Assembly: GCF_002197845.1 (NCBI RefSeq)
Contig: NZ_NIDE01000004.1
Location: 1,240,001-1,304,000 of the forward strand
Direction: 5' to 3'
Source of the DNA: Fimbriiglobus ruber
GTDB taxonomy: Bacteria > Planctomycetota > Planctomycetia > Gemmatales > Gemmataceae
Length of the DNA: 64,000 bases
Shown here piece after piece: positions 22,011 through 41,000 of the stretch. Each line of letters starts with the position of its first letter. Within the stretch, counting starts at the first letter, position 1. Position numbers and translations under genes: made by a program. The notes under the pieces are model-generated. The model did no database searches, was not told the origin of the DNA, and saw nothing but the letters and a program-made list of their open reading frames with translations.

Positions 22011-22221
22011 GCCTATGCCCCTCGCGGTCGGCGGTACGAGCGGCAAAAGCGGGTGCCACCCTGAGAGGGCGATTTCCGTCGCCATGTATCAGACGGCAAG
22101 TTTTCGATTCACGCAACAGAAATGGTCGGCCGGCGAATTTCCCGCCGCCAAATTTCTGAACAGTTTCCGTGACCGGCGGACATCATATTGGTGGAACCCC
22201 ACCCTCGGCCGGAGCCCCCGG

Positions 22222-24012
22222 ATGCCAATCCGCCTTCGTTCCCCGGCTCGACTGATCCCCACTGGCGACGACGACCGCGCGCTGCTGGCCCGCTTCGCCA
22301 GGACCGGCGATCAGACTGCCTTCGCGACCCTCGTTCAGCGGCACGGCCCGCTCGTCCTGGGCGTCTGCCGGCGGGTACTCCGCGACCCGCACCGGGCGGA
22401 CGACGCATTCCAGGCTGTTTTCCTTGTTCTGGCGAAGCGGGCCGGAGCGGTCGCGGCCGGGCCGTCGCTGGCGAACTGGCTCTTCGGCGTCGCCCGCCGC
22501 GTGTCGCTGGCCGCGCGGCGGGACGACCGGCGGTGGACCCGTCGGCAGAAGCGGGGGGCCAAGGAAGGGGAAAAGACGGACCAAGCGGCGACCCCGGACG
22601 CCGCGACAACCCAGCCGGCCGAATGGGACGACCTGCTCGGCTCGCTCGACGATGAACTGGCCCGCTTACCGGACGCGCTTCGGGCGGCGGTGCTGGAGTG
22701 CTACTTCCGGGAGAAAACGCAGGACGAGGCCGCACGCACGCTCGGCTGGAGCGTGAGTACGCTTCGCCGGCGTCTCGACCGCGCGAAGGATTTACTGCGC
22801 GTCCGTCTGACGGCCCGCGGGGCGACGTTCGGGGCCGCCCTGATCGCCGGCGCGGTCGCCGCGTCGGCCGCGACCGCGAGCGTCGTGCCGGCACTCGTGC
22901 AGGCGACAGCGACGGTGGGCGTCGCCGGTCGGGCCGGTGGTTCCGTCGCGGCTTCAATCACTCGTTTAGCAAAGGGAGGAACAAGAATGTCACTGGCAAC
23001 AAAACTCGGCCTCGGCGGCCTTGCGGTCGGGACCGTCGCCCTCGGCGTCAGTTTCGGCGCAGGCGTGTGGTCGTCGGACCCGCAGGCGCCCCGAAATGAC
23101 CTGCCCGCGGCCGTCGCCCCGCAGACTGCGGTCGCGGCGGCTGAAGACCCGCCCGCGGTGGTCGTGAAGCCGACTCCCGTGGAAAAACCGGGGGTGCCCG
23201 CGAAACCAACTGAAGTGCCCCGCGTGACCACACCACCCGTCATTCCGGCGCAGCCACCCCTTATTCCGGCACAGCCACCGAAGGGGTCGGTGCAACCACC
23301 GGCCTTGGGCAATGAATGGGCCACGATCACGGGCCGCGTCAAGATGACGAATCCGCCCGAAAAGCGAAGCATCGCGGTAGTCGCGGATAAAGAACACTGC
23401 TTGTCGAGAGGCGCTCAGTTTTACGAAGACCTGATCGTGAATCCCAAGAACGGAGGCGTGAAGTACGTCATTGTTTGGCTCCGTCCGGATTCGGTGGATC
23501 GCAAAGACCCGTTCCCGAAAGATCGGATTCACCCGGACCTCATCCGGGCCACGTCCAAGAACCACGTCATCGACCAGCCGTGCTGCCAGTTCGTCCCTCG
23601 CGTCCTGGCAGCACGGGTCGGTGATACCCTGGAGATTAAGAACAGCGCTCCGGTCCCGCACAACATCAATTTCAGCAGTGACGATCAAGCGTTTAACGTC
23701 ACGATTCCGCCCGGCCAGTTTCACAAGTTAGAAAGGCCGCTTGTGGCCCAGGCCACGCCGATCCCGTTCAAGTGCGACATTCACCCCTGGATGGCTGGCC
23801 GGCTCCGGGTATTTGAACACCCGTATTTCGCGGTCACGGACGACGACGGCAAGTTCGAGATCAAGAACGCCCCAATCGGCAAGTGGCGGCTGGTCGTCTG
23901 GCAGGAGAACGGCTTCCACAAAGGCCGCGCGGGCATACTTGGTGAGCCGATCGAAGTGAAGAGCGGCGGCGTGGAAATGCCGCCCGTGGAACTGGAGCTG
24001 CCGAAGCCGTAA
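22222..24012 (+). CDS. ECF sigma factor fused to membrane anchor and amicyanin-like cupredoxin domain
   Basis: A 596-residue fusion. Residues 1-195 are an ECF sigma factor: region 2 contains RVLRDPHRADDAFQAVFLVL, region 4 contains YFREKTQDEAARTLGWSVST. Two hydrophobic segments follow (about 203-232 and 262-283), then a Pro-rich linker with repeated IPAQPP (about 335-362). The C-terminal domain has a type 1 copper site: His480 in VPHNINF, Cys518, His521 and Met524 in CDIHPWMAG, the C-x2-H-x2-M spacing known from amicyanin; it ends with a carboxypeptidase-regulatory-like beta domain. Copper or redox state outside the membrane could thus be coupled to transcription without a separate anti-sigma factor (inference). 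Start: ATG at 22222 after GGAG; the upstream frame extension lacks support. Confidence 0.85.
   Translation: MPIRLRSPARLIPTGDDDRALLARFARTGDQTAFATLVQRHGPLVLGVCRRVLRDPHRADDAFQAVFLVLAKRAGAVAAGPSLANWLFGVARRVSLAARRDDRRWTRRQKRGAKEGEKTDQAATPDAATTQPAEWDDLLGSLDDELARLPDALRAAVLECYFREKTQDEAARTLGWSVSTLRRRLDRAKDLLRVRLTARGATFGAALIAGAVAASAATASVVPALVQATATVGVAGRAGGSVAASITRLAKGGTRMSLATKLGLGGLAVGTVALGVSFGAGVWSSDPQAPRNDLPAAVAPQTAVAAAEDPPAVVVKPTPVEKPGVPAKPTEVPRVTTPPVIPAQPPLIPAQPPKGSVQPPALGNEWATITGRVKMTNPPEKRSIAVVADKEHCLSRGAQFYEDLIVNPKNGGVKYVIVWLRPDSVDRKDPFPKDRIHPDLIRATSKNHVIDQPCCQFVPRVLAARVGDTLEIKNSAPVPHNINFSSDDQAFNVTIPPGQFHKLERPLVAQATPIPFKCDIHPWMAGRLRVFEHPYFAVTDDDGKFEIKNAPIGKWRLVVWQENGFHKGRAGILGEPIEVKSGGVEMPPVELELPKP
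22974..22989 (+). promoter_or_regulatory. Internal ribosome binding site and ATG within the sigma-cupredoxin gene
   Basis: GGGAGG at 22974-22979 with seven bases to an in-frame ATG at 22987 (residue 256, MSLATKLGLGG), right before the second hydrophobic segment. This could give a separate 341-residue membrane-anchored copper protein from the same gene. Confidence 0.45.
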
Positions 24013-24087: not shown

Positions 24088-24686
24088 GATACGAGAACGA
24101 TTGGCTACGCGGTTCGCCTGCTGATAGCAGAGGAACGCGGTGGCACTATGCACCATGCCAGCAATTCTTGCCTCATATTCTAGCCTGAAAATCCTAGTTC
24201 TTCAGCAAAATTACGCGATTAAGACTGTAAGATCGATTGGGCTAAATGCGGCAAGTTGTTGCTGCACATGGCTATTGGTTCTTCTTTGAGACCAAGTTCG
24301 TTTTGCGGCATTGAAACTGCGTATCTCTATCACGAATGTGACAGTATTTCTAACGATAGAAAATATATTAAATGTTTGTGTGAAATGCTGAGTGCGAGGC
24401 TTCCCGCCGCCAAATTGTCGGAATTCCGGAAAAAAGTATGTTCTTCGTTCCTTACACGGCTAACGGATAAGTTAGGGAATTCTCTCCACGCCAATTGTTT
24501 ATCCCGCCAGATTTCTTCGCAATATCAGTTTTGTCCGATTTGGACGATCTTTTATTGGACTCATGATTGCACAGCTAACGGTACGGACTGTGAACCCCAC
24601 CGGATATCCGCCCCACGATTTTGCGATCGTGGCACAAATTTAACTCTCGTGATTTTATCGGTTTTCCCACTGACCAGGAGAAACAC
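24088..24686. other. AT-rich intergenic region
   Basis: About 600 bases clearly richer in A and T than the surrounding genes, especially 24170-24600. A plus-strand frame is open across 24256-24729 but lacks a ribosome binding site and has unlikely composition. This region is the upstream leader of the DUF1559 gene and may hold its promoter; no strong -35/-10 pair was singled out. Confidence 0.5.
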
Positions 24687-25706
24687 ATGTCTCGGAGAAG
24701 CCCCAGATACCACCAGGCATTCACGCTAATCGAACTTCTGGTCGTGATCGCGATCATTGCCATCCTGATCGGCTTGCTCTTGCCGGCCGTCCAGAAGGTC
24801 CGCGAAGCTGCGGCGAGAGCCCAATGTGTGAATAATCTCAAACAGTTGGGGTTGGCCTGTCAGAACTTTCATGGCACCTATAACCACTTCCCGCCCCTCT
24901 ACGGCAGCCTGAGCGGTTACCAGTCTGTGGTTACGAGTACAACTGGTTTTTGCAACATCCATTTCTGGCTCTTGCCGTATATCGAACAGCAGAACCTTTA
25001 CAACACTTGCTTCACGGGAAGTTACTACAACCAGTCCCTGGTGGGGAACTCGATCGTCAAGACCTTTCAGTGCCCGTCGGACCCCAGCTGGAATAACGGC
25101 CTTGCTCTTTCGACTCTGGGAAGCGGCCCGGTTTCCTGTTATGGAGCAAACGCACAGGCGTTCGCCCAGTGGAGCGGATCGTCCGGTCAGGTGACGTGTA
25201 CCAACCAGGGACCGGGTGGGGATATCGATGCCAACGCGGCAACTGCCCAGAGTACGATCGCCCAGTTCAGTGACGGAACCTCGAACACGATCGTTTTCAC
25301 GGATAAGTTGGCGAACTGCGGCACTCCCTACCCGGGCGATTACTGGGGAGCTGCGAACATCTGGACGGCCTCACAAGGGTACACAACCTCGCCAAACACG
25401 AACAATTATCTTTCCAGCAGCCAGCCGTTTATTGCGGCAATCTGGCAGTCCTACAACCCGATGCCGGGCTCTGCCACTGCCGGGGGGCAGGACTTCAGCG
25501 GGGTGACCGTTACCATTCAGGCGGCCACTACCCAATGGTCGAGCAACACTTGCGACGGACGCATCGCTTCCGCAGGTCACACCGGGGGAGCAAACGTCGG
25601 CCTCTGCGACGGGAGCGTCCGGATGGTCCCGTACTCAATCAATGTCTTCACCTGGTGGTATGCTTTGACCCCCCAGGGAGGCGAAGTGATGGGAAGCGAC
25701 TGGTGA
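24687..25706 (+). CDS. DUF1559 prepilin-like protein
   Basis: A 339-residue member of the DUF1559 family that is expanded in planctomycetes. The type IV prepilin-like N terminus reads [16 protein letters not shown] (about 13-28) with the conserved Phe and Glu5 of the N-methylation site and one membrane helix, followed by [15 protein letters not shown]. The C-terminal signature [14 protein letters not shown] is present ([19 protein letters not shown]). These proteins are presumed to be exported pseudopilins of unknown role. The ATG at 24687 has AGGAG at the right distance. A small lipoprotein gene follows, a pairing common for this family. Confidence 0.93.
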
Positions 25707-26596: not shown

Positions 26597-27793
26597 CTAC
26601 CATCCGCGGTGGAAACCGCTCCTTTGCAGTCTCCCGCTCCCGCCGCCATGCTTGTTGTTCGATTGTTTGAAGCCTTTCAAGATGCCTTCGAGCAACTTGG
26701 TACGTGGGTCGTTCGCGGGGGGAGCCTTCGCTTGAACGTTGGGCGCGGGCGGACCGGGGTTCGGAATGCCCGGCAAGTCATGGGCACCCATATGCTTCGG
26801 GGGCGTGCCGTCGATGAGCTTATAATCGGCGTCCACGTGACCGTGGAGGTCGTACGCGTTATCGGCTAACGTCCCATTCTCGGCCAAAGAAAACGTCAGG
26901 GTGCCGACCACCGTGCCGTTGATCTTTCGTTTGAAAACGGCGGACTGGATGGCCATCGTCTCGGGGTCAATAACCAGATCCACTTTTTGATACCGAATAG
27001 ACTCTTTGGATTGAGTCGGCTTGGGAGTTGCGGCAATACGTATCCGTTCGCCTGGGGTTCCGGTGCCCTCTTTCTGGAGGTCGTATTCGGACAGGAGTTC
27101 GTTCAGCATCGTGAGAACGCGGAGGCTCATCAAGTCGCTGTACTTCCTGATGGGCGCGTTCTCCTCGGATGCGTCGTACACGAGCACTTGTTTCCGGTTC
27201 ACGGCGACCCAGACCTGACCGTTCCGGCTCTGCCCCCACGCGGTCGTCTTGTTGTTTTCGTCGGGAGTTTCCACGTAGAACTGGTCGCCCCGCGTCCAGA
27301 GGCGCGACAGCTGTGGGGCGGATTCTAGTTTTAACTGGTTCAGGGCCGCGTCGTCCCACTCGGCCCGCACGTCGTAACGACGGTCGGTCGGGGCGGTGTG
27401 GGTCGCGCGGGCTAATTCGAGAATGTCTGACGCCGACGTTGGCGTGCCGACCACGACCGGCTTATCGTGCGGGTCGCCGCCGGACAACAAGACGAACAGG
27501 ACGACGCACGCGGCAACAAGTGACCCGACACCGACACCGACTCCGCCGACGGCGAACCAAAGTGCCTTCCGCCCGAGGGCCGGGCGAACCGGCGAGTCGT
27601 CCGAGTCACGATAGTCTTGCCGGGTTTCTATCGGCTGCCCGTCGTTCGACAGCACGGCCGCGTGGACCCGGGCCAAGATAGCCTCCGGGTTCACGCCCGC
27701 CGCTTCGCGGTCGAGGTGCGCGCGGACCACCCGTTCGATCTCGGTCTCGGCGTCGCCCGCGGGCGAGGGGGTCGGGTTAGGGGTCGTCGTCAC
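26597..27793 (-). CDS. Membrane protein, probable anti-sigma partner of an ECF factor
   Basis: Product of 398 residues, GTG start overlapping the sigma-factor stop by four bases (GTGA). The cytoplasmic N-terminal part (1-75) is short and charged; one membrane helix lies near 76-103 (FAVGGVGVGVGSLVAACVVL). The extracytoplasmic part (about 110-340) has a beta-rich fold with PQLSRLWTRGDQFYVET and QVDLVIDPETMAIQSAV-like strands, resembling outer-membrane lipoprotein-sorting or LolA-like folds (weak). The tail is Pro/Lys/Gly-rich. Position and topology suggest an anti-sigma or signal-sensing partner; no zinc-binding anti-sigma motif is visible. Confidence 0.65.
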   Translation of the reverse strand: MTTTPNPTPSPAGDAETEIERVVRAHLDREAAGVNPEAILARVHAAVLSNDGQPIETRQDYRDSDDSPVRPALGRKALWFAVGGVGVGVGSLVAACVVLFVLLSGGDPHDKPVVVGTPTSASDILELARATHTAPTDRRYDVRAEWDDAALNQLKLESAPQLSRLWTRGDQFYVETPDENNKTTAWGQSRNGQVWVAVNRKQVLVYDASEENAPIRKYSDLMSLRVLTMLNELLSEYDLQKEGTGTPGERIRIAATPKPTQSKESIRYQKVDLVIDPETMAIQSAVFKRKINGTVVGTLTFSLAENGTLADNAYDLHGHVDADYKLIDGTPPKHMGAHDLPGIPNPGPPAPNVQAKAPPANDPRTKLLEGILKGFKQSNNKHGGGSGRLQRSGFHRGW

Positions 27794-28341
27794 GGTACGG
27801 TGTCTCCCCCGAGGTACGGGGCGAGGTACGCGGCCAAGGCTTGCCTGGCGCGGTGGACCAACACTCCGGCGTACGTGGGCGTTACATCCAGAATTTCGGC
27901 AATTTCCTGCTGCGTGTACCCGAGACTCTTCAATTCCAGGGCCGCCCGCTGCTGCGTCGGCAACAACTTCAGCCCGGTCGCGACCGCCGCGCTCAGTTCG
28001 CTGTGCGCGAGCCGGTCCCCCGGCGCCGCGGCGCGGTAGTCGACCGGGTCGTCATTCCGCTCGTCCCCGCTCTCGGGGTCGGTGCGAACGAAACGAAACA
28101 TCGGCCGCCGCCGGGCGCGGAGGTTAATACACGCGTTCGTTACGGCCCGCAGTAGCAGCTTTAAACCGTCGCGAGGGAGGTCGTACACGTCTGCCTTGGC
28201 GAGTAACCGGCAGTAGCAATCCTGTACGATGTCCTCCGCGTCGTCAACGTTCCGAAGCAGTGACCTGGCATACGCGACCGCTCTGGGTGCCGTTTCTAGC
28301 ACCCAGGCGTCAAGGTCGGCGTCCGGAGAGTCTTGGGCCAC
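27790..28341 (-). CDS. ECF-type RNA polymerase sigma factor, 183 aa
   Basis: Region 2 (about 14-85) contains ARSLLRNVDDAEDIVQDCYC, the -10 recognition and core-binding part; region 4 (about 125-175) contains LLPTQQRAALELKSLGYTQQ and EIAEILDVTPTYAGVLVHRA, the -35-binding helix-turn-helix. Length is normal for group 4 factors. The GTG start at 28341 has AGGAG seven bases upstream. It is coupled by a four-base overlap to a membrane protein gene likely to control it. Confidence 0.88.
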   Translation of the reverse strand: MAQDSPDADLDAWVLETAPRAVAYARSLLRNVDDAEDIVQDCYCRLLAKADVYDLPRDGLKLLLRAVTNACINLRARRRPMFRFVRTDPESGDERNDDPVDYRAAAPGDRLAHSELSAAVATGLKLLPTQQRAALELKSLGYTQQEIAEILDVTPTYAGVLVHRARQALAAYLAPYLGGDTVP

Positions 28342-29742: not shown

Positions 29743-29805
29743 CCTTGGCCGACGTGAAGCATTTTTTGCATTTATTGCGATGAAACCCCTGTTTTAGGAC
29801 CGGCG
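29743..29805 (+). repeat. Direct repeat, intact copy
   Basis: Runs from CCTTGGCCGACGTGAAGC through GCATTTATTGCG to GTTTTAGGACCGGCG. A second copy starts at 29825 and is interrupted by the IS5-type element, resuming at 30814. Confidence 0.8.
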
Positions 29806-30731
29806 CGTCTCTGCGACTGCCGAACCTTGGCCGACGTGGAGCATTTTTGCATTTATTGCGCTGAGAGCCTGTCCGGGAAGACTATTTTGATGCAACTCTA
29901 TATTTAAACGGGGATAACGCTCTTGTGGATCCATGCGATTGAGGATCAGCTGGATTGACCGCACACGGATCATGGATTCGCTGGAACTATTCAGTCGCTC
30001 ATAATTACGACTCAACCGCCGGGCCCGCCCGAGCCACCCGAACGTCCGCTCGACGACCCACCGCTTGGGTAACAGGGTGAACCCCTTCACCCCGTCCGGT
30101 CGGCGGACGATGACGAGTTCCCATCCGAGTTCCGGGTGGCCGTCCTTCCACCCGTTCAGGGTATGGTTGTGATACTTCCCGTCGGCCCACACGACCTTCA
30201 ACCGCGGGTACGCCTCCCGGTCCAACGATTCGAGTACGGTCGGGGCCGCGGCCGCGTCGTCGACGTGCCCGGCGGTCACCGCCACGACCATCAACAGGCC
30301 CAGCGTATCGACCACGATCGACCGCTTCCGGCCCTGGATTTTCTTGCCCGCGTCATACCCGTTCCCGCCCGCGTGTTCGGTCCCCTTGACCGACTGGCTG
30401 TCGATGCTCGCGGCGCTCGGGGTCCGCTCGTGGCTCGGGGCGTGGACTTCCCGATACCCCTCCCGGAGGACATCCAGGAGTTCTTGCCAGGTACCGTCGT
30501 CCCGCCACTGGGAGAAGTACTCGTACACCGTACTCTTGGCCGGGAAGTCGTGCGGGAGCATCGACCACTGACACCCCGATCGGTTCACGTACAGGATCGC
30601 GTTCATCACCTCCCGGAGGTCCACCGACCGGGGCCGCCCCCCGGCCGGGCGGCGGGCAAGACGACTTGAATGATCTCCCATTGGAGGTCGGTCAAATCCG
30701 TCGGGTACGGTTTGCGAACGGTCGCGTCCAT
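29794..30731 (-). CDS. IS5-type transposase in two frames joined by a -1 slippery site
   Basis: Frame A starts at the ATG at 30731 (MDATVRKPYPTDLTDLQWEI, AGGAG upstream) and stops at 30606. Frame B carries PRSVDLREVMNAILYVNRSG, the catalytic DSQSVKGTE, VVWADGKYHNHTL and RWVVERTFGWLGRARRLS, a DDE-type active site. The zero frame passes CCG GGG GGC at 30643-30636; a one-base slip on the heptamer G GGG GGC gives RPGGRPRSVDL, the sequence I recall for uninterrupted relatives. Total about 310 residues. The frame has no stop inside the element and runs about 70 bases past the left inverted repeat to 29794, so the last 24 residues come from flanking DNA. Confidence 0.75.
29865..29880. repeat. Left inverted repeat of the IS5-type element
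   Basis: GAGCCTGTCCGGGAAG; pairs with 30798-30813 with three mismatches. Confidence 0.7.
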
Positions 30732-38073: not shown

Positions 38074-41000
38074 GTGTGGACGCCGCGCCGCATCGGGTTT
38101 CTGCTCCTGGGGATGGTCGCGTTCACGACCGCGTACGTCATTTACGCCCGCGCGCTCGGCGGGGTGGACGGTCTGCCCGAGCTTCCTCCCCGCTACCTCC
38201 CGCAACACAACGGGACAACCCAGCCGGTAATACCCGACGGTAACGGCATTTCCCCGACTTACGCCCAACTCTATCGGGCGTTCGGGCAGGGTTGCCTGGA
38301 AGTCGTCGACGACATCTCATACAAGCTCCGCATCGAACGGCGGGACAAGGGGCTCGTCTTCGCCTGCGGGCAACCCGACTACGGCCAACCGCCGAGTAAA
38401 TTCGTTCCGGTCTCCCCGTTCAGTCTGGCCTTTTTCGGCAAGCAAAATCCCAACGCGTTGCCGGGCGAAGTTCAGGAAATTAGTACGCTGCACTCCGACC
38501 GGGCCATTCTCCAGTTCGACCGCCCCGTGTCCGGGGTACGGGACATGACCGAGGCCAAACTCCTCGGCATCCAGTTGGACAGCATTCCGGACATGCCGAG
38601 CCGCGACCCGCGGCGCGGCCGCATCTGGGTCACGAACAACCAAAAATCGTCCGACCCCGGTCAGTTCATGGAGTTCCGCACCCCCGGCCCGCTTTTCTAC
38701 CAGTCGACCGACGAACCCGACCAGCCCGCGCGGGCGGACGCGCCGCAGATTTGGACGGCCGCCGCCGTCGAGATGATCGACCGGCGGAACCTCCCCCGCC
38801 CGCTCCGCTCGACGAACTACGCGACCGCCACGACCGCCGGGGACGATTTCCAGAACACGTCGAACGCCCTGGCGGACATCATGCTCGGGTTCACGCTCCC
38901 GCCCCCGACGGTCACGGCCGACGGGATGAAGATTTACCTCCGCCGCGAGACCGGCGGCGGAAACACCAGCGGGAGCAGCTACAGCGGGGTCCGCCTGATC
39001 GAACTGCCCGATCGGGTCAACATGCATTTGTGGACCTCCGCCGGGTCCGCGTTTCCGGGGTCGTCGGACGGGGGCGAGACGCCGGTGGTCGTGCCCGACC
39101 CCCCGCTCGCGGCTACGGCGCTGGCCGGCGGCCTGCTCGACGCCGCCGCGGCGTGGCGGAAAATGAACGAGAAAACGTTGTTGGAGATCACCACGCCCGG
39201 CATGTTCCGGTTCGACATGCAGACGAACATCGCGAGATTCGAGACGACGGTGGACCAAAACCTGGGCTTGCCCAATCAGGTGAGCGTGACCCGGCACTCG
39301 GCCAACGGCACGAAGGACCACTTGTTCTGCCGCATACTGCAGATCGAATTCGAGAACGAGTCGAATACACCTGCCAAGCCCGGGAGCCCGCCGCCGAAAC
39401 CCGCGAACACGTCAAAAGAAAGCGGGATGAAGATCAAGAAGGTCACCGCGACCGGCGATTACGTTTACGTGTCCGTCGAAGCGGAACAGCTCATTGCACA
39501 AGGGAATGAGCTGATTTACACGATCGAACCGAACGGCCTGAAGTCGACCACCGTTCTGCGCGGCACGCCCGTGTACGCCGTCCGGGACAAAAACGAGCTG
39601 ACGGGCGGACAAAAAACGCCGGCCGTGACCGGTGAGATCGTACTGGTCAGCACGGAGCCGCCCCCCGAACCCAAATCGAAGCCGGCGGAGCCCAAATCGA
39701 AGCCGGAACCCAAGGCTGAGACCGTGGCCAAGCGAGACGCCACGCCCAAGCCAAAGAAACAGACGACGATCAACGTCAACGGTGCGGGCGAGATCAAGCT
39801 GTTCGACCACGCGACGAACGAAACGTCCCTCCGGGCCACCTGGGGGCGGTGCCTGATTCATGAGAAAGTGGTCGTCGGGAACGCCGAGCAGGACTTGCTG
39901 AAATTCGAAGGGAACGGCGGGTTCTACGACGTCAAAGCCAACACCAAGATTACTGCCGAGCGCCTCTGGCTGTGGCTGGCCCCCGCGCCGCCCGCACCGG
40001 GCGACGAAAAGCCGAAGGATAAATCGCCCGCAGGTGGTGGTGCATTTGGAGGGTCGTCGCAGTCCTTGCCGCAACGCCTGCTCGCCGTCGGCGACGTGAA
40101 ATCGGATTCGGCGGACCTGATCATCGGAATGCCGGATCAACCTCCCGTCGACCAACTCAACGTCTGGTTCCGAGACACTCTGCCTCCCCCCGAACCTGTG
40201 GCGGCCACCGCCACGGCGGGCGCTGGGGCGACACCGGGTTCGCCGCCCGCGGCTGCACCGGTGCCGGGTCCTACGGGGACTACGCCGCCGGTGGCGGCGG
40301 CTACCGCTCCTCCGCCCGTCGCCCCGGCTGCCCCGGGCGAGAAGGGGTCCGAGCCGAAACTGGTCGTCCCAGTTGCGCCCGATCAGGTGGCGGCCAAGCC
40401 CGATGCGAAACCGAAGGCGCCGGAAAAGGCACCGGAGCCGGAGAAGTCCAAGCCGATCGTACTCTCCGCCCGGGAGATTGATAGCTGGGTCGTTCGCTAC
40501 CCGGTCAAAACCCCGCCACCGGCTGCCAAGCCGGACGCCCCGGTCGACCCCGCGGCCGAGCCGGTTAAACCGTCGACGTCTCTGAAATACGAGATGGAGC
40601 GGACCAACTGCCGGGACCGCGTGCGCGTCACACAGGAGCCGAGCGATCCCGTGAAGAACCCCCGCGGCCTCGACATCACGGGCGTCAAGATGAACATCGA
40701 CCAGTCCCGGGCCGGCGGGGTGATGACCGTGTACGGGACGCCGGCCGCCATCGCGCGGGTCATTTTCGAAGACATGACGCTTTACGGCCCGGTCGTGGTC
40801 ATCAACCAACCGGACAACTCGGTGGCCGTGGACGGGATCGGGACACTCGTGATGCCGAGTTCGTCGGGAACGCCCGGCGGGGGCTCGGCCGACCGGCCGA
40901 ACGAGATGATTATTAACTGGATGACGTCGATGCGGTTTTTCGGGGCCAAGCAGACCGCGGAGTTCCTCGGCCAGGTCACGGCGGTCCAACAGCCGACCCG

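Follow-up and report, generated by a model that had tools for sequence, protein, structure and literature searches.

A single gene of Fimbriiglobus ruber (22222..24012, + strand, 596 amino acids) encodes an ECF sigma factor followed by a membrane segment, a Pro-rich linker and a cupredoxin domain, an order found in one frame in 18 further Gemmataceae genomes. Positions are those of the window, the whole stretch of 64,000 nucleotides that was analysed, from a genome of 12.4 Mb. A sequence-only reading had proposed one frame joining sigma regions 2 and 4, two hydrophobic segments, a Pro-rich linker and a domain with type 1 copper ligands; the frame is uninterrupted from its ATG (22222) to its stop (24010-24012), and three of the other genomes that carry the same order (G044, G051 and G081) are single-contig assemblies, so that the fusion architecture is real with near certainty. 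The suspected novelty may also hold: no description of such a fusion between a cupredoxin and a sigma factor was found in the open-licence papers searched. The reading favoured here, at slightly under an even chance, is that the outer domain of a membrane-tethered, ECF57-like sigma factor reports the state of a cupredoxin system and that the factor would regulate itself.

Both sigma regions exceed their Pfam cut-offs, including region 2 (residues 37-104; 22330..22533, +; PF04542 Sigma70_r2, E = 1.5e-10) and region 4 (residues 141-190; 22642..22791, +; PF08281 Sigma70_r4_2, E = 6.5e-9). With no region 3 recognised between them, this is the arrangement of an ECF sigma factor, and the NCBIfam sigma70-ECF model (TIGR02937) scores the protein at 76.9 bits against a cut-off of 42.9. 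In the portion of PMC8999054 used here, group ECF57 is described as having a long C-terminal extension, often of WD40 type, and two conserved cysteines suggested to link sigma2 and sigma4. The sigma part resembles this group, with one cysteine in each of the two regions, a comparison with the published description and not of matched positions; C49 and C160 are kept in 19/19 fused proteins and in 37/43 and 42/43 paralogues, respectively. The WD40-like extension, common but not universal in ECF57, is absent from the fusion protein, which has the cupredoxin tail instead. Within the window genome, the sigma part has 74 matches, 47 of which (the window's included) have an E value of 1.6e-23 or better.

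Two hydrophobic segments had been read from the sequence and both are present in the window, where they are about equally hydrophobic: residues 208-226 (22843..22899, +; uncharged, mean hydropathy 1.85) and residues 264-282 (23011..23067, +; mean hydropathy 1.71). Among the relatives, however, only the second resembles a conserved membrane helix, with a hydropathy of 1.7-2.7 in 17 of 18 rows (L047 excluded), while the best stretch for the first segment contains Arg in 11 of 18 rows. Between the segments, K/R outnumber D/E in 13 of the 17 usable rows (window, 5 to 0); in the other four, the two are equally frequent. The conservation of the second segment and the excess of K/R before it point to a topology in which the sigma part is inside, a single helix spans the membrane and the cupredoxin is outside; if both hydrophobic segments span, the cupredoxin would be inside. 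The full-length model has pLDDT <50 across the membrane part, and the Pro-rich linker, also as first read (residues 283-362; 23068..23307, +), has pLDDT <50 up to residue 347. ECF factors of Tuwongella have been found in Triton- and SDS-soluble fractions, according to the portion of PMC8567305 used here.

Upstream of the gene is a promoter-like element, CTGAACA-N15-GGACATCATA (22156..22187, +), that ends 34 nt 5' of the ATG. In the form TGARCA-N15-GGACATSATA (at 22157 in the window), the element precedes 15 of the 19 fused genes, with no mismatch in 11 and one mismatch in four, and is missing before L034, L041, L042 and L052, which are four of the six fusions with an intact predicted copper site. 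Scanning the window genome with the 15-nt gap fixed returned one site without mismatch, none with one or two mismatches and 25 with three mismatches, compared to 32 in a reversed control; with no second close site and a three-mismatch count under the control, a regulon of the element in this genome was rejected. A site with two mismatches and a 16-nt gap occurs at 38852 of the window, and no copy was found in the upstream region of the stand-alone cupredoxin gene of the same genome. Across ten other genomes, eight of nine sites with 0-1 mismatch are upstream of a fused gene; the ninth (G084:C3:4656849-4656879, +), with one mismatch, lies within open frames. Allowing up to two mismatches in these ten genomes gave 54 sites (26 in the reversed control), with 8 preceding a fused gene and 46 elsewhere. 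For 22 of these 46 (L138-L159), none was near a sigma or cupredoxin relative, and some fell inside frames by a frame heuristic. A recurring two-mismatch element with an exact second half precedes a Ser/Thr-kinase-like frame in G081 (L151:1501, +) and G065 (L153:1501, -), and is also listed for G090. There may be further weak targets. Three nearby sigma paralogues (L062, L063 and L070) have the TGARCA half in common, followed by a different downstream half. Its position before the fused genes suggests that the element may be an autoregulated promoter.

The C-terminal domain (residues 363-596; 23308..24009, +), predicted to be extracytoplasmic, was modelled by AlphaFold with a mean pLDDT of 95.5. 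It is longer than amicyanin, consisting of a beta-rich N-terminal part, a cupredoxin core (residues 445-531, model residues 83-169; 23554..23814, +) and a tail that includes a C-terminal beta part (residues 535-582; 23824..23967, +) with sub-threshold Pfam matches to fn3_3 and CarboxypepD_reg, the latter being matched by 36 of the 47 relatives with E values no higher than 0.01. Searched as a single sequence, the domain gives weak matches (Pfam Copper-bind, E = 0.1, below cut-off; amicyanin, E = 0.086), but a profile of 47 sequences searched against the PDB identifies amicyanin at E = 9.6e-7, with the H-N and C-x2-H-x2-M motifs aligned to those of amicyanin, such that the cupredoxin assignment failed by the Pfam family and succeeded by profile. 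Structural searches of the modelled domain agree, with Foldseek returning amicyanin (E = 4.5e-6) and VIA-align returning a Bacillus Cupredoxin_1 protein as its best match (4hcf; Z = 11.1, rmsd 1.8 over 84 residues) and amicyanin rows at Z = 9.3-10.0; the pilin BcpA, last among the 50 matches listed, also reaches 9.2. The predicted fold is that of a cupredoxin beta-sandwich. The model for amicyanin proper (NCBIfam TIGR02657) does not match the window domain at E 0.01 and matches 12 of the 47 relatives at that level or better, and the domain is a member of a wider planctomycete cupredoxin family rather than an amicyanin proper. Copper-bind (PF00127) has no match at E 0.001 in the window genome; as the profile built from the 47 relatives finds two full-length copies there, the Pfam model is too narrow. 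The fused domain is 75-76% identical to the stand-alone gene of its own genome.

The ligands claimed for a type 1 copper site, H480 (23659..23661, +) and C518, H521 and M524 (23773..23793, +), align as described with the C-x2-H-x2-M spacing of amicyanin, and homology and fold together suggest that they converge on a complete site in the window domain. The motif C-x2-H-x-[WF]-M occurs in a forward frame at 76 of 80 named loci, and the four ligands are kept in 35/35 stand-alone rows, with L060 counted as stand-alone. Fused copies retain all four in 6/19 cases (the window, L034, L035, L041, L042 and L052) and have lost ligands in 13/19, a count that leaves out three partial rows (L055, L057 and L058; one intact, two lost) and the doubtful frame L008_8, in which the ligands are not kept. 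The 13 site-less fusions form a single clade (support 100/99) and the loss may have been one event. Two further residues, C393 (23398..23400, +) and C455 (23584..23586, +), are possible disulfide partners and are both Cys in 35/35 stand-alone rows, in five of the six intact fusions (not L035) and in 0/13 site-less fusions; their conservation in all stand-alone rows fits a disulfide formed in an oxidising compartment.

The distribution of intact sites bears on the possibility that the protein is a direct sensor of copper or redox state, in which a change at H480/C518/H521/M524 would release the sigma factor to transcribe copper or redox genes. The full ligand set in the window and five other fusions is consistent with this, as is the cupredoxin tree, where the window domain is sister to the stand-alone copy of its own genome (100/98), meaning that the site was kept or renewed. 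However, the ligands are gone in 13 of the 19 fusions, so copper at this position cannot serve the protein family as its general signal. Further, the lack of a second close element in the window genome leaves no copper regulon visible, and no copper families were found among the ten neighbours of the fusion gene scanned with Pfam (four of which lack any Pfam match). Direct sensing is judged unlikely, and of the copper-sensor proposal in the sequence-only reading, the complete predicted site in the window stands, while copper sensing by the fusions in general does not.

In the window, the fusion gene is followed on its 3' side by a DUF1559 pseudopilin-like gene (24621..25706, +; PF07596, N_methyl). 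A second, ordinary ECF sigma gene (27790..28341, -) is located within 26597-28341, and its end overlaps a gene for a 398-aa protein that matched no Pfam family and has, by eye, one hydrophobic segment and an anti-sigma-like look. An IS4/5-type transposase (DDE_Tnp_1, DUF4096) is encoded at 29794..30681 (-). Frames beside the other fused genes, among those listed and named by eye, include undecaprenyl-diphosphatase-like, cysteine-desulfurase-like and pseudopilin-like examples.

The fusion was observed in the window and at loci L034-L049, L052 and L054, distributed across genus codes g1, g17, g33, g34, g38 and g39, with all relatives in family code f1. Named records for these loci are from Gemmata, Limnoglobus, Fimbriiglobus and Gemmataceae MAGs, and include Limnoglobus roseus PX52 and Gemmata sp. 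IIL30. At one additional locus (L061, in G079), the contig ends just past the beginning of the cupredoxin part. The domain profile matches 90 of 95 Gemmataceae genomes (E 0.001) and 123 of 392 genomes of the phylum (E 1e-30), and no sigma fusions outside the Gemmataceae were seen among the best 80 of 230 loci and 8 further long frames.

The two parts of the protein have different histories. For the cupredoxin, L034 groups with stand-alone copies of its genus (99/94), and L041 and L042 group with one of theirs (99/95). A single clade of fused cupredoxin domains was rejected with and without L052 (p-AU = 0.0004 in both cases), as was a clade of the window, L034, L041 and L042 alone (p-AU = 0.0009); a single clade of sigma parts including L052 (from G040) was also rejected (p = 0.008), all of these values being from quick trees with groups defined after the first trees were viewed, and indicative only. 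Without L052, the sigma parts of the fusions fall together on a single side of one quick-tree branch (support 82). A more careful sigma tree pairs L052 with L064 (100/96) and places an own-genome paralogue, L075, among the fused rows (82/81); L075 has no cupredoxin match in its stretch. A single origin of all fusions was rejected for the cupredoxin domain and likewise for the sigma part when G040 is included. These results suggest one main sigma lineage whose cupredoxin tail was swapped with stand-alone copies or fused anew from them. L052 is a separate fusion, and the window domain could derive from gene conversion or from a fresh fusion.

Stand-alone cupredoxins are also the immediate neighbours of most fusions. 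For the 13 site-less fusions and L035, an intact stand-alone copy is the next gene on the same strand in 14/14 cases. Between the stop of the fused gene and the ATG at the signal-peptide-like start of the stand-alone protein there are 4-67 nt in 12 of the 14, and 201 and 315 nt in the remaining two; the copy is 32-67 nt downstream in 11 of the 13 site-less fusions. For these 14 relatives, the idea of a one-protein route from outside the membrane to transcription is too simple. No stand-alone copy was seen beside the window gene, L034, L041, L042 or L052 within the stretches examined. The other cupredoxin copy in the window genome is on contig C1, unlinked to the fusion gene, and, as in two other genomes, this unlinked copy adjoins inositol-monophosphatase-like and ROK-kinase-like genes. 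In G040, a gene for a 1531-aa multihaem cytochrome (L251:1195-6581, +), which has eight CxxCH motifs in addition to cytochrome c matches, overlaps at its end with the beginning of the stand-alone cupredoxin gene, and a cytochrome-b C-terminal match, just above cut-off, adjoins the pair. Relatives of the 1531-aa cytochrome occur in 16 of the 88 locus records carrying the domain (L160-L247); L234 matches weakly (24% identity), and L209 and L251 come from a single contig. Based on these relatives and the gene layout in G040, the stand-alone cupredoxin family may be a respiratory redox carrier.

This arrangement is what a sensor of partner occupancy might produce, in which the outer domain would mimic the stand-alone cupredoxin and dock on its putative partner. 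Whether that partner is free or occupied would determine the activity of the sigma factor; copper would not be needed, which would allow the site to be lost. The members of the site-less clade directly precede an intact stand-alone copy, and the fused domain appears to have been swapped with stand-alone copies, or fused anew from them, more than once, which is in keeping with mimicry. Against it, the 13 losses are perhaps one event and the window has an intact site with its stand-alone copy unlinked, making partner occupancy by itself an improbable explanation.

It is also conceivable that the C-terminal domain is an anchor or stabilising tail only, with the sigma factor controlled by expression, a kinase or another partner. 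Ten paralogues from other genomes bear very different tails (three WD40, three with none recognised and one each of Poly_export, FecR_C, DUF1549 and planctomycete cytochrome c with a caspase-like part), and control of this other kind could also apply to further planctomycete ECF factors, whose tails vary. The last of these tails (L066:90-3185, +; genome G020), with its caspase-like and PSCyt1 domains, is another redox-type tail. However, at least two sigma lineages acquired a cupredoxin tail, the history of the domain is non-clonal and its fold is conserved, so that an inert tail is held to be less probable again than either form of sensing. An artefact, whether a frameshift or a chimeric assembly merging two genes, has nothing in its favour except the sub-cut-off Copper-bind match of the single sequence, and the repetition of the order in the other genomes, single-contig assemblies included, reduces its chance to almost nil.

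Reporting on the cupredoxin system by a tethered sigma factor, the favoured reading, would draw on elements of both forms of sensing. The ECF57-like sigma factor would be held at the cytoplasmic membrane, its C-terminal domain on the outer face, and this outer domain would duplicate a cupredoxin that the bacterium itself secretes and that may serve as a respiratory redox carrier. In proteins with an intact site, such as that of the window, the outer domain could report its own redox or copper state; in those that have lost it, the outer domain could report the occupancy of a docking partner shared with the stand-alone cupredoxin. The signal might be passed inward by proteolytic release or through a change of conformation that sets the sigma part free. 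Once active, the sigma part would use the conserved upstream element to transcribe the operon to which its gene belongs; in most relatives, the intact stand-alone cupredoxin gene seems to lie in this operon. A narrower version, to which only a minor share of confidence is given, is a private feedback loop by imitation, where the sigma factor would carry, in renewed form and sometimes without the copper site, the cupredoxin secreted from its own operon or genome, would gauge with it how well the redox carrier or its docking partner is supplied, and would drive essentially no promoter but its own.

If the topology is as predicted, a change on the outer side of the membrane could alter transcription without an intermediary. 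With the copper site gone from most of the fused relatives, copper itself may not be the signal. The tail in this case can be named and has known chemistry, and the gene has a candidate promoter and, in many relatives, an intact partner gene directly downstream; with named strains available, the signal, the release step and the target are directly testable. One clade without the copper site, set against others that keep it, amounts to a natural experiment.

Several known systems share parts of this design. Amicyanin and other small cupredoxins (PDB 1sfd and 4hcf) share the fold and the ligand set (His / Cys-x2-His-x2-Met), but the core identity is about 20-24% and the fusion has extra N- and C-terminal parts and an attached sigma factor. 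CorE of Myxococcus xanthus, as described in the portions of PMC3107203 and PMC8999054 used here, is likewise an ECF sigma factor with a metal site in its own C-terminal extension and responds to copper; unlike the fusion, it has a cytoplasmic Cys-rich domain, lacks a cupredoxin and regulates several copper genes. The Cys-rich C-terminal domain and the CXC in the sigma2-sigma4 linker that mark CorE-type factors are not found in the fusion, where, by eye, residues 105-140 contain no Cys and the entire C-terminal domain contains four. With ECF57, as portrayed in the same portion of PMC8999054, the fusion has in common the long C-terminal extension and two conserved cysteines, and three of the ten related paralogues have WD40 tails, but its own tail is a membrane-anchored cupredoxin and not WD40. 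A similar overall order is described in that portion of PMC8999054 for ECF52, represented by SCO4117 of Streptomyces coelicolor, in which a sigma factor is followed by a membrane part, a Pro-rich periplasmic stretch and an extracytoplasmic binding domain, and for which proteolytic activation was proposed; SCO4117 differs in its zinc-finger anti-sigma-like part, in a binding domain directed at carbohydrate and in belonging to another phylum.
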